The notes under the pieces were generated by a model. It searched no databases. It was not told the DNA's origin and saw only the letters and a list, made by a program, of their open reading frames with translations. Positions 5,263 through 8,606 of a stretch of 14,790 nt of DNA are shown here, one piece after another (within the stretch, counting starts at the first letter, position 1; every line of letters starts with the position of its first letter). This DNA comes from an uncultured Sulfitobacter sp. (GTDB taxonomy: Bacteria; Pseudomonadota; Alphaproteobacteria; Rhodobacterales; Rhodobacteraceae). The stretch is from assembly GCA_937923365.1 (NCBI GenBank), contig CALAIJ010000184.1, positions 1-14,790 on the forward strand. The letters run 5' to 3'. The position numbers and the translations under genes are program-made.

Positions 5263-6210
5263 CTATTCTACCCTGTCCGGGGCTGGGCGCAAGCGGGTAG
5301 CTGCATCTTGGTGAGTGGGTTGGGGGGCGTGTGATTTCAGCCGCGCTTCGCGCCACGCCAGAAGCACTGCCCCTGCGATAATGATCCCCGCACCGATCCA
5401 GCTGACAGCATCGGGCAGCGCGCCATAAAACAGCGCATCATACAGCACCGCAAAAAGCAGTGTGGCATAGCTGAAGGGTGCCACAAAACTTGCATCCGCC
5501 CGTGCCATACCGTTGACAAAACAGGTCTGAGCGGCGGCCATCGAACAGCCCACGCCCGCCAGAACGGCCCATTGCAGCGCAGTCGGGCTTTGCCAAACCG
5601 TGTAGACAGCCACCGACGAGATCACCAAACCAAGCGTGTTGTTGAAGATCAGGATCTGGAAAGGCCCTTCGCGCCGCGAGAGCTGCTTGATGAAGATAAG
5701 CTCAAGCCCCATCACAAGCGCCGCCCCCAGCGCCAGCAAGGCAGCGGGTTGAAAGCTGGACGGCGTAGGCCGCAGCAGGATCAGCGCGCCCAGCAAGGCC
5801 AGACCCGCAGCCGCCCAGCGGACAGGGCCCACCTTTTCACCCAGCAGCGGAATGGCCAGCATCATCGCAAAGACAGGGTTCAGGAACGAAATTGCCGTGG
5901 CGTCCCCCAGGGGGATGAACGCGACAGAGGCGAACATCAGTGTCACCCCCGCCCAGCCACACAGCGTGCGCGCCAGATGGAGCCGCAGATGGGGCCGCTC
6001 AAGGGCAGGGCGCACCACTGCCGCCACACTCAGGATCAAGATCCACGCGAACAGGAACCTGCCATGGCTGATTTGCAAAGCGTGCAGCGGCGCGCCGAAA
6101 CTGCCTGTGCCCAAGCCCTTGGCCAGCAGCGATGAAGCCGCAATAAACACCCCCGCCGTCACGATCATCCCTGCCGCCAGTGCGTTGTTCTGCTGCTTTG
6201 CGATAAACAT
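5263..6210 (-). CDS. EamA/DMT family membrane transporter
   Basis: 315 residues, very hydrophobic, with about ten predicted membrane helices arranged as two EamA repeats (roughly 15-135 and 150-285). Typical cues are HGRFLFAWILIL, FIPLGDATAISFLNPVFAMMLAIPLLGEKVG at the end of the first repeat, and PFSYATLLFAVLYDALFYGALPDAVSWIGAGIIIAGAVLLAWRE at the end of the second. The C-terminal tail is short, basic and cytosolic in type. Drug/metabolite transporters of this family export or exchange small metabolites; the substrate cannot be predicted. ATG 6210 is kept as start, though its ribosome binding site is poor (GCAGGCG). Met15 is a possible alternative. The gene diverges from the arginine leader/argD unit, with only 85 bp between its ATG and the leader ATG, so the two share a promoter region. 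Confidence 0.93.
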   Translation of the reverse strand: MFIAKQQNNALAAGMIVTAGVFIAASSLLAKGLGTGSFGAPLHALQISHGRFLFAWILILSVAAVVRPALERPHLRLHLARTLCGWAGVTLMFASVAFIPLGDATAISFLNPVFAMMLAIPLLGEKVGPVRWAAAGLALLGALILLRPTPSSFQPAALLALGAALVMGLELIFIKQLSRREGPFQILIFNNTLGLVISSVAVYTVWQSPTALQWAVLAGVGCSMAAAQTCFVNGMARADASFVAPFSYATLLFAVLYDALFYGALPDAVSWIGAGIIIAGAVLLAWREARLKSHAPQPTHQDAATRLRPAPDRVE

Positions 6211-6259
6211 GGGCGTGCTATGCGCCTGCGGCTTGCGCTGGGCAATGACAAATTTCCTC

Positions 6260-6289
6260 TTTACGGGCGGTATCTTTGCCCGCTATGCC
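6260..6289 (+). promoter_or_regulatory. Candidate promoter of the leader-argD-argF transcript
   Basis: TTTACG (6260-6265), an 18-bp spacer and TATGCC (6284-6289) place +1 six bases later, at A6296, which is the A of the leader ATG. Such a leaderless start would explain why the leader ORF has no Shine-Dalgarno sequence. The spacer contains CGGGC-9 bp-GCCCG (6264-6282), a possible operator. The hexamers are only moderate matches to sigma70. An alternative -10 is TATCTT at 6271. Confidence 0.4.
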
Positions 6290-6295
6290 TGCGAC

Positions 6296-6340
6296 ATGAT
6301 CAACTCAAACGCATATCTTCTTCGACGACGCCGTCGCTGA
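6296..6340 (+). CDS. Putative arginine leader peptide upstream of argDF
   Basis: ATG to TGA encodes MINSNAYLLRRRRR, 14 residues ending in five arginines read from CGA CGA CGC CGT CGC. A run of the pathway's end-product amino acid, in a tiny ORF 139 bp before the first of two arginine-biosynthesis genes, is the hallmark of ribosome-mediated attenuation. No Shine-Dalgarno is present. In rhizobial trpL the leader is leaderless, and a promoter can be drawn here that starts at this ATG. The arginine codons themselves can fold (CGACG-ACGC-CGTCG, 6323-6336). Downstream arms allow two exclusive structures. Too short for standard gene callers. The peptide and its position are seen directly; the regulatory role is inferred. 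I do not know of a named family for it. Confidence 0.72.
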   Translation: MINSNAYLLRRRRR

Positions 6341-6368
6341 CAGTGCCGCGCCCCTGTCTGGCAGGGGT
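6336..6368 (+). promoter_or_regulatory. Candidate attenuator: two mutually exclusive hairpins after the leader peptide
   Basis: Structure A pairs GCTGACAG (6336-6343, covering the leader stop) with CTGTC-T-GGC (6354-6362, one bulged T), 8 bp with one G-U. Structure B pairs CCCCTG (6351-6356) with CAGGGG (6362-6367), extendable by one G-U, loop TCTGG. Both need bases 6354-6356 and 6362, so they cannot coexist. A ribosome stalled at the first Arg codons would leave A free to form. One that reaches the stop would mask its left arm and favour B. Structure B is followed by TTGATCC, not a T-run, so it is a weak intrinsic terminator; Rho or pausing may be involved. Confidence 0.5.
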
Positions 6369-6429
6369 TGATCCATTGGCCACGCTTTTGGCCGAGCTTC
6401 CCAAATCCCATTGACTGACGACCGCCGCC

Positions 6430-6483
6430 ATGCCCTTTTGGGCGCTTACCCGCGGCCTTTTCCCAAAGGATACGATCCGATGA
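6430..6483 (+). CDS. Possible short ORF overlapping the argD start (ATGA)
   Basis: ATG at 6430 to TGA at 6481-6483 encodes MPFWALTRGLFPKDTIR. Its stop overlaps the argD ATG as ATGA, the arrangement used for translational coupling. It has no good ribosome binding site, and its start lies in a small GCCC-TTTT-GGGC hairpin. Could be chance. Confidence 0.2.
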   Translation: MPFWALTRGLFPKDTIR

Positions 6484-7649
6484 TTGCTTCTGTTCTGCCG
6501 ACCTATTCCCGTGCCCCCCTGAGCTTTGTCAAAGGCGAAGGCTCTTGGCTGATCGAGGCGGATGGCCGACGTTTTCTGGATCTGGGCGCAGGGATTGCGG
6601 TGAATGCACTGGGCCATGCGCATCCCGCCCTGGTCAAGGCGCTGACGGATCAGGCGGGGGCGCTCTGGCATACCTCCAACCTTTACGAGATACCGCAGCA
6701 ACAAGCGCTTGCGGACCGCTTGGTGGAACACAGCTTTGCCGACACGGTATTCTTCACCAATTCCGGCACGGAAGCCTGCGAGTTGGCGGTCAAGATGGCG
6801 CGCAAGTATCACTACGATAAAGGCGCGCCTGAACGGGTGGAGATCATTACCTTTGAGGGCTCCTTTCACGGACGCTCCGCTGCGGGCATCGCGGCGGCAG
6901 GGTCCGAAAAGATGACAAAGGGCTTTGGACCGTTGCTGGGCGGTTTTACCCATCTGCCTTTTGGCGATCATGACGCGTTGACCGCCGCCATTACGGACAA
7001 GACCTGTGCGGTCATGGTGGAGCCCGTGCAGGGTGAAGGCGGCATTCGTCCGCTGCCGGACGCCTGCCTCAAAGGGCTGCGCGATCTGTGTGACCAACAC
7101 GGCGTTCTGATGATCCTCGACGAGGTGCAGTGCGGCGTGGGGCGCACGGGGCGGCTCTTTGCCCATGAATGGGCGGGCATCAACCCTGACATCATGATGG
7201 TGGCCAAAGGTATCGGCGGCGGCTTCCCCTTGGGCGCGGTGCTGGCCAGCGAAGATGCGGCCAGCGGCATGACCGCAGGCACGCACGGATCGACCTATGG
7301 GGGCAACCCGCTGGGATGCGCAGTGGGTGCCGCGGTGATGGACACGGTCACAGCGCCAGAGTTTCTGGCGGAAGTGAACCGCAAGTCGGCCCTCCTGCGT
7401 CAAAAGCTGGAAGGACTGATTGCCAGCCACCCCGAAGTGCTGGACGCAGTGCGCGGCACGGGGCTGATGCTGGGTATCAAGTGCAAAGCGCCGAATATGG
7501 ACATGGTCAACGCGGGCTACGCGCAGAAAGTCATCACGGTTCCTGCCGCTGACAATGTGATCCGCCTGCTGCCGCCTCTGACGATCTCGGACGATGAAAT
7601 CGACATGGCCATTGCCCGTCTGGACGCCGCCGCCGCCTCACTCGCCTGA
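6480..7649 (+). CDS. argD: Acetylornithine aminotransferase
   Basis: 389 residues, the usual size for this class III, PLP-dependent aminotransferase. It converts N-acetylglutamate semialdehyde to N-acetylornithine in arginine synthesis and often also serves as succinyldiaminopimelate aminotransferase for lysine. Motifs in order: FLDLGAGIAVNALGHAHP (32-49), phosphate-binding NSGTEA (94-99), SFHGRS (128-133), EPVQGEGG (181-188), LDEVQCGVGRTG with the PLP-contacting Asp214, MMVAKGIGGGFPLGA with the Schiff-base Lys243, and STYGGNP (271-277). ATG 6480 is chosen because homologues begin MIxxVLPTYSRAPLSFxxGEGSW and AAAGGA lies 9 nt upstream. An in-frame TTG at 6411 would add 23 residues and is rejected. 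It is the first structural gene behind the arginine leader; argF follows after 51 bp. Confidence in ArgD over other class III transaminases comes from the argF neighbour. Confidence 0.95.
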   Translation: MIASVLPTYSRAPLSFVKGEGSWLIEADGRRFLDLGAGIAVNALGHAHPALVKALTDQAGALWHTSNLYEIPQQQALADRLVEHSFADTVFFTNSGTEACELAVKMARKYHYDKGAPERVEIITFEGSFHGRSAAGIAAAGSEKMTKGFGPLLGGFTHLPFGDHDALTAAITDKTCAVMVEPVQGEGGIRPLPDACLKGLRDLCDQHGVLMILDEVQCGVGRTGRLFAHEWAGINPDIMMVAKGIGGGFPLGAVLASEDAASGMTAGTHGSTYGGNPLGCAVGAAVMDTVTAPEFLAEVNRKSALLRQKLEGLIASHPEVLDAVRGTGLMLGIKCKAPNMDMVNAGYAQKVITVPAADNVIRLLPPLTISDDEIDMAIARLDAAAASLA

Positions 7650-7700: not shown

Positions 7701-8606
7701 ATGAACCATTTTCTCGACATTCACCAAACAGACCCCGCCGCCCTGCGGGGCATGATCGACAGCGCCATTTCGATGAAAACGGCCCGCGCGGGCCAGCCCA
7801 AAGGGGCGCTGGACACCGATCAGCCGCTCAAAGACCATATGGTCGCGCTTATTTTCGAAAAACCCTCGACCCGCACACGCATCAGCTTTGACGTGGGCGT
7901 GCGCCAGATGGGTGGCCAGACGATGGTTCTGTCGGGCACCGACATGCAACTGGGCCTCGGAGAGACGATTGCGGACACGGCCCGCGTCCTCAGCCGTTAC
8001 GTGGATCTGATCATGATCCGGACATTCGAGGAAGCGACGCTTCTGGAGATGGCCGAATACGCCTCTGTGCCGGTGATCAACGGGCTGACAAACCGCACAC
8101 ATCCCTGCCAGATCATGGCGGATGTGATGACGTTTGAAGAACACGCAGGCCCCATCAAGGGTCGCAAGGTGGTCTGGTCGGGTGACGGAAACAACGTCTT
8201 TGCCAGCTTTGCCCATGCGGCCAAACAGTTCGAGTTTGATCTGACCTTTACCGGCCCTCCAACGCTGGATCCGGAACCTGCACTGGACGGCATGTACGCC
8301 ATCGAACGCGATCCGCACAAAGCGGTGGAAGTTGCTGATCTGGTTGTCACGGACACCTGGGTCTCCATGCATGATCCGCAATCCGCGCGTGAGCGGCGGC
8401 ACAACCAGTTGCGCGGCTATCAGGTGAACGATGCCCTGATGGCGCGGGCCAATGACGATGCGCTTTTCATGCATTGCCTGCCAGCCCACCGCGACGACGA
8501 GGCAACAAGCGCTGTCATGGATGGCCCCCATTCCGTGATCTTTGACGAGGCCGAAAACCGCCTGCATGCGCAAAAGGCGATCATGCGCTACTGCCTTGGC
8601 AAGTAA
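7701..8606 (+). CDS. argF: Ornithine carbamoyltransferase
   Basis: 301 residues, slightly short for the family (about 305-320). The enzyme joins carbamoyl phosphate and ornithine to citrulline, in the cytosol, normally as a trimer. Motifs: carbamoyl-phosphate loop [12 protein letters not shown] with STRTR at 56-60, HPCQIMAD at 134-141, ornithine-binding DTWVSM at 218-223, and HCLPAHR at 258-264 with the catalytic Cys259. The S-M-G consensus reads SMHD here; the ornithine-contacting Asp, Ser and Met remain. The ribosome binding site before ATG 7701 is weak (AAGAGA). It sits 51 bp after argD and overlaps the following ketopantoate-reductase-like gene by about 11 bp, so the three are probably co-transcribed and under the upstream arginine leader. 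The assignment is secure. Confidence 0.97.

Follow-up and report, generated by a model that had tools for sequence, protein, structure and literature searches.

The window, a 14,790-nucleotide stretch from a draft genome (65% complete) of an uncultured Sulfitobacter sp., carries on its plus strand two genes of arginine biosynthesis, argD, encoding acetylornithine transaminase (6480-7649; NF002325 and TIGR00707), and argF, encoding ornithine carbamoyltransferase (7701-8606; NF001986 and TIGR00658), and both score above the cut-offs of their family models, in agreement with the preliminary description. Among named contigs, those with the nearest argD are Sulfitobacter contigs (top identity 89%, L038), and a Shine-Dalgarno-like AAAGG can be read ahead of it in the sequence (6465-6469, plus strand). 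Between argD-argF and a divergent EamA-type transporter gene on the minus strand (5263-6210) sits a short open reading frame (ORF) on the plus strand (6296-6340), which reads ATG ATC AAC TCA AAC GCA TAT CTT CTT CGA CGA CGC CGT CGC TGA and encodes, in 14 codons, the peptide MINSNAYLLRRRRR. Its codons 10-14 (6323-6337) are CGA CGA CGC CGT CGC, and 139 nt separate its stop from the ATG of argD at 6480, so that the sequence bears out both the count of Arg codons (five, with CGA twice) and the spacing originally reported. The ATG at 6296 is also internal to a longer open frame starting at 5852; the start that is kept in relatives is 6296 and not that of the longer frame. Rfam gave no match in the window at gathering score, and at E up to 10 the region 6200-6560 gave a single match, on the opposite strand and far under the cut-off.

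The leader ORF is not a product of chance. Under a fixed criterion (an ATG ORF of at most 22 codons with Arg-Arg, at least three Arg and at least one CGA codon, and a stop 60-230 nt before argD), leaders were found at 170 of 176 Rhodobacteraceae loci, duplicates included, compared with 137/3520 first-order Markov shuffles, 9/176 reverse complements and 5/397 stretches farther upstream. When GTG starts were allowed and two Arg codons were taken as enough, an Arg-Arg leader was present in 178 of 179 distinct upstreams (distinct by the 200 nt upstream, out of 198 loci in all). These figures, like those for the 135-locus set below, depend on ORF choice by Arg and CGA count, while the genus set is free of CGA choice, and there an Arg run closes a short ATG ORF, similarly spaced from argD, at each of the 30 argD loci, that of the window included, and all 30 leaders contain an in-frame CGA. 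Loss of the Arg run among relatives would speak against a regulatory role, as the preliminary description had put it; the run is kept across the Rhodobacteraceae. The sample comprised the best 80 of a larger number of titled Rhodobacteraceae contigs, a choice biased toward near relatives, 28 new best-scoring loci from a family-wide search with roughly one genome for each genus and a further 40 lower-scoring loci from the list of that search, which took in 394 genomes, 43 of them with no ArgD match at E 1e-170. A later set of 18 loci (20 minus two repeats, L352 being L109 and L357 being L108), fetched after the model was made, had the leader in every case (ATG in 17, GTG in L356), with CGA first in the Arg run and a downstream TTGAC motif.

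The six loci that fail the fixed criterion include four with just two Arg codons, both CGA (L095, L109, L148, and L172), one with nine Arg codons, none CGA (L154), and one with no leader at all (L145), and two loci outside the 176 (L123 and L126) have leaders. In L145, the sole distinct locus without a leader, the end of an upstream gene comes close to TTGAC, as would be seen after replacement of the leader region. Outside the Rhodobacteraceae, 2 of the 26 best-scoring loci of a class-wide search (L201 and L205) pass the criterion in a wider search window, and neither has TA at the conserved place before the ATG. Among other arginine genes in the genus, the criterion was passed before argG in 1 of 25 and before argJ in 1 of 24 loci, both chance-like, and in a search of 36 genus genomes for the pattern ATGATC-N15-33-CGACGACG, the argD site alone recurred as a leader, as judged by eye. 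The argG upstreams of four Sulfitobacter loci (L244, L247, L250, and L251), inspected by eye, have no Arg leader and show a promoter-like CTTGC followed about 15 nt later by GATAC or GGTAC, shortly before argG.

The Arg codons of the leader show a bias both in codon choice and in position. The Arg pair begins at codon 10 or 11 in 130 of 178 leaders and opens with CGA in 169; the invariant part of the peptide is the Arg-Arg core alone, the invariance of these two residues being set by the search rule, and a third Arg is found in 82% and a fourth in 71% of leaders. In a set of 135 loci, CGA makes up 289 of 575 leader Arg codons but 174 of 1825 within argD itself, the leader share being somewhat inflated because the scoring favored CGA, and it makes up 5 of 159 Arg codons in nine genes of the window. 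Leader frames in these 135 loci show no break between start and stop and measure 9 to 19 codons. Among the short leaders, MTKATQTRRA has two CGA codons alone, and L031 retains Arg through an AGA codon. When the 178 leaders were aligned on the Arg pair, no residue besides Arg exceeded 44%, and such a variable remainder fits a leader in which codons would be sensed. The hexamer CATATC, often read as His-Ile, recurs at codons 5-7 in 56 of 178 leaders, and CATAT occurs in different frames (52, 20, and 3 leaders) and may therefore be a nucleotide feature.

Upstream of the ORF on the plus strand are a -35-like TTTACG (6260-6265) and a -10-like TATGCC (6284-6289), the latter beginning 12 nt before the leader ATG. 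In the 178-leader set the start was picked partly by the promoter; in the single-ATG set (96 loci), which is free of promoter choice, T is at -35 from the ATG in 93% of loci and TA is exactly at -12 in 58 of 96, with 21 of 96 at the next best offset, -13. A general promoter scan gave no sigma-70 site at this promoter, and no conserved Shine-Dalgarno tract was seen ahead of the leader ATG. From the placement of the -10/-35 pair, transcripts are expected to start at the ATG itself, and the leader ORF is thus probably leaderless. This predicted start is one that both the promoter placement and the lack of covariation upstream of the ATG (below) fit.

The start of the leader is predicted to pair with a segment beyond its own stop codon. 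In the window, a 9-bp run with one G-U joins 6298-6306 (GATCAACTC) to 6365-6373 (GGGTTGATC) on the plus strand, and these are the 5′ and 3′ strands of a helix termed P1, the 3′ strand being designated segment D. Leader nt 1-12, start codon included, match the stretch from stop to TTGAC of their own locus better than those of other loci (z 14.3, n = 154), and covariation is also seen in the 63 loci without an ATGATC leader start (z 8.0). TGATC occurs in the segment D stretch of 73 of 91 loci with ATGATC leaders and of 4 of 63 with other leaders. The controls were null, with z 0.7 for nt 13-24, 0.7 for nt -12 to -1 and -0.3 for the stretch from TTGAC to argD. Because permutation leaves relatedness in, path-independent pairs on an ArgD tree of 120 loci were also used, and in the 41 such pairs with different leader starts the own partner was favored in 29 and the swapped partner in 4, with 8 ties (control segment, same pairs: 17 own, 12 swapped, and 12 ties); pairs of ATGATC with non-ATGATC leaders gave 16 own, 0 swapped, and 4 ties in 20 pairs. 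The 18 loci fetched later gave z 6.8 for P1 and 0.8 for the control. P1 is 4 to 10 bp long with G-U allowed, a mere 4-bp run in 14 of 154 loci, and in 125 of 154 it is no more than 2 nt away from the predicted 5′ end. An RNAalifold run with 29 aligned sequences not of the Sulfitobacter type did not recover P1, the leader start being paired with the argD start instead of segment D. As read from these comparisons, the co-evolution of leader nt 1-12 with the segment after the stop is new here.

Control of the argD ribosome-binding site by segment D was considered and rejected. GATGATC is found in this site in 54 of 77 loci with TGATC in segment D and in 18 of 77 without, and windows ungrouped by clade gave weak signals (leader start vs argD -12, z 3.7; near segment D vs the stretch after hairpin C, z 3.4). 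Within-clade permutation gave -0.2 for segment D and 0.2 for the leader start, and the association is therefore probably one of shared ancestry.

Three hairpins and a sequence motif follow the leader on the plus strand. Hairpin A (6351-6367; CCCCTG...CAGGGG), which overlaps the 3′ strand of P1 by 3 nt, was read from the sequence and its fold and was seen by eye in several Sulfitobacter loci. Hairpin B (6378-6393; GGCCA...TGGCC) covaries in fixed windows (z 7.6), as does hairpin C before argD (6424-6456; GCCGC...GCGGC, with an inner TGCCC...GGGCG; fold and z 4.8), which is followed in the window by CTTTTC; the clade-permuted segment test overstates z for P1, B and C, these segments having been chosen for pairing. 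RNAalifold recovered hairpins B and C from the 29 other sequences and found no structure in 36 Sulfitobacter-type sequences. Between B and C is a C-rich stretch (6396-6415) ending in TTGAC (6411-6415), a pentamer present in 172 of 175 loci, and over the 30 nt up to and including it C outnumbers G in 169 of 172 loci; a stretch so rich in C and poor in G would suit Rho. TTGAC lies about 55-70 nt before argD, with GGCA or GGCC some 16 nt later. It may be a second promoter, which would bypass the leader, or an RNA element. A promoter is favored by the pentamer, by its spacing from argD and by the fact that L145 retains it; against one, the -10 does not resemble TATAAT and is not the same in Sulfitobacter as in the other loci.

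The preliminary description had called the leader a candidate arginine attenuator, and of this the conserved Arg leader ahead of argD stands, while the classical sense of the term is not supported, there being no conserved antiterminator found and rarely a U tract. Five or more T in the 8 nt after hairpin C were found in just 19 of 172 loci, and a terminator scan of the window region gave no terminator. A hairpin formed by the Arg codons and the stop has z 6.8 in fixed windows and 3.8 in the clade-permuted test, and it is unsupported within Sulfitobacter (z 0.7 there vs 4.1 elsewhere). Segment covariation gave no conserved antiterminator pairing and no upstream strand that pairs consistently with hairpin C. 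When RNAs were folded with a ribosome masking the start, the Arg codons or the stop, hairpins B and C hardly shifted, and with the mask on the start or the Arg codons the access to the argD ribosome-binding site hardly changed. Neither segment covariation nor ribosome-mask folding thus turned up a classical antiterminator. Membership in the terminator/antiterminator class is not claimed, because one of its defining features, a ribosome-dependent antiterminator, was sought and not found. In its anatomy the leader would nevertheless appear to work like that of an attenuator.

Control of arginine synthesis in bacteria is known chiefly through the repressor ArgR. The preliminary description had taken an E. 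coli-type ArgR to be usually absent from this group, and this held in the genomes searched: no PF01316 match came from 60 relatives or from 149 family genomes, while 9 of 14 control genomes gave one; the sets of 60 and 149 overlap by at least the source genome and one other, and the source genome is only 65% complete. A conserved ArgR in gammaproteobacteria and its absence in other classes have also been reported (PMC5343134, in the part drawn on here).

A real, family-wide and codon-based arginine leader is very probably what these features amount to, and sequence comparison supports its ORF, the conservation of that ORF, the bias in codons and their position, the promoter placement, P1, and hairpins B and C. 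We infer the transcript start, the stalling, the ribosome geometry and the direction of regulation and, with least certainty, the read-out. In the proposed mechanism, a leaderless regulatory ORF at the extreme 5′ end of the argDF transcript would gauge charged tRNA-Arg. A ribosome would initiate at the 5′-terminal ATG and, when charged tRNA-Arg is low, would stall at the CGA-led Arg pair near codons 10-11. From the usual footprint of a ribosome, one stalled with an Arg codon in its A site would occupy about nt 12 to 42; the leading nine or so nt would therefore be just free to pair with segment D as P1, and the stall would leave no space for the next ribosome. With ample arginine, ribosomes would run through and reload at the ATG, and P1 would therefore be open more of the time. 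The level of argDF expression would follow from this ribosome-dependent state, most likely because transcription would end early in the C-rich stretch and at hairpin C ahead of argD, and argDF would go up when arginine runs short. The anatomy of the leader agrees with stalling as the means by which charged tRNA-Arg would be sensed, and it is likely that shortage acts through stalling and P1 to raise argDF expression. More tentatively, and with some doubt, this may be a distinct sensor design in which the 5′-terminal start codon is itself the switch strand and no separate antiterminator is needed, the Arg run being kept around codons 10-11 because a ribosome stalled there would both block the next one and just free nt 1-9 to clamp segment D.

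Several other explanations of the same features have to be weighed. A textbook attenuator would have hairpin C as its terminator and, farther upstream, a strand in competition with either arm of that hairpin, through a pairing that varies between clades and so escapes the covariation test; it would account for a covarying hairpin adjoining argD and for the T-rich tail of some loci, that of the window included. Within Sulfitobacter the Arg codons even covary with the 5′ arm of hairpin C (z 2.3), but the same comparison gives z -2.8 in the non-Sulfitobacter loci, the post-stop segment vs the 3′ arm gives z 1.4 overall, and with the U tract so rare and the terminator scan of the window region empty this explanation is unlikely. 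It is rather improbable that P1, which so often closes the very 5′ end, serves the fate of the RNA by shielding either the argDF message or a short leader RNA against decay, or that such a short RNA acts in trans in the manner of rnTrpL of Sinorhizobium, an attenuator RNA that is leaderless and has functions in its own right (PMC10117765, in part). A ribosome-based reason is demanded by the strictness of the Arg codons and their position, and the peptide is unconserved beyond Arg.

This lack of conservation also bears on the idea of an arrest peptide whose nascent chain, while in the exit tunnel, binds arginine or ornithine, as for SpeFL or the fungal arginine attenuator peptide. Ornithine is used by argF, and the His-Ile that precedes the Arg run in 56 of 178 leaders recalls the HIRR core of the speF leader (PMC6386406, in the portion used), but HIRR itself occurs in 3 of 178, a conserved peptide around the stall site is absent, and the nucleotides of the first codons track P1 and not a peptide, all of which makes an arrest peptide very improbable. 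Just as hard to credit is a conserved RNA or DNA element on which the ORF merely happens to lie. As a string of letters CGACG is strongly conserved, and pairing of the Arg codons with the post-stop segment is seen in the tests given above, but the frames are open throughout, L031 keeps its Arg with a different codon and the distance from promoter to ATG is kept.

No description of an argD leader in Rhodobacteraceae was found in the open-licence full-text literature searched, a scope that excludes older comparative surveys of proteobacterial attenuation and is therefore no proof of novelty. If the reading is true, a family-wide argDF leader would show how Rhodobacteraceae, in which ArgR was not found, can tune the arginine pathway, and arginine would join the amino acids with a biosynthetic leader.

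The classical attenuators of the trp, his, leu, ilv, thr and phe operons place a leader peptide rich in the end product before its own biosynthetic operon and combine an antiterminator with a U-tailed terminator, neither of which is conserved at the argD leader. Among leaders that respond to arginine, rbfL of Staphylococcus aureus is likewise a short upstream ORF in which rare Arg codons slow ribosomes in arginine shortage, but there the stalled ribosome blocks the next ribosome-binding site, low arginine represses and the target is a biofilm regulator (PMC13009471, in the part consulted). A precedent for arginine sensing at a comparable codon position is orf34 of speF in Salmonella, in which tandem Arg codons at 12-13 sense arginine, low arginine favors expression, Rho is involved and regulation persists when CGA CGA replaces the native codons; this system differs in that it is from a gammaproteobacterium, has a long leader and a conserved peptide domain, precedes ornithine decarboxylase and, with its start at nt 32, is not leaderless (PMC6386406, in the same portion). 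A precedent for a leaderless leader is rnTrpL/trpL of Sinorhizobium meliloti, which is also alphaproteobacterial, leaderless and 14 codons long with end-product codons before a biosynthetic gene, and which differs in serving tryptophan, in being seen to be translated by Ribo-seq and in its reported trans functions (PMC10117765, in part).

Of the known systems, the cysS leader of Rhodobacterales comes nearest; it is described as uORFC-8-2, a leader ORF ahead of cysS (PMC8632094, in the section used here). It comes from the same taxonomic order and is likewise a short leader with tandem codons of the relevant amino acid; it differs in that its codons are for Cys, its gene encodes a tRNA synthetase and its 3′ end carries a U run, where the argD leader has Arg codons, biosynthetic genes and a rare U tract (PMC8632094); lying ahead of argD with Arg codons, the argD leader is not itself a member of uORFC-8-2. 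Cys-rich leaders, candidate members of uORFC-8-2, were found in 28 of 50 cysS upstreams (L298-L347), many having the Cys pair before codons 14-15. TA is at -12 in 13 of the 28, and the first 12 nt co-evolve with the post-stop stretch (z 5.0; control nt 13-24, -0.3, one of the 28 being too short), a start-codon helix that goes unmentioned in the section of PMC8632094 on uORFC-8-2. Its recurrence ahead of cysS offers a directly testable point on how leaderless leaders work, and, more tentatively, the covariation of the start codon in both groups suggests a general design of such leaders in Rhodobacterales.
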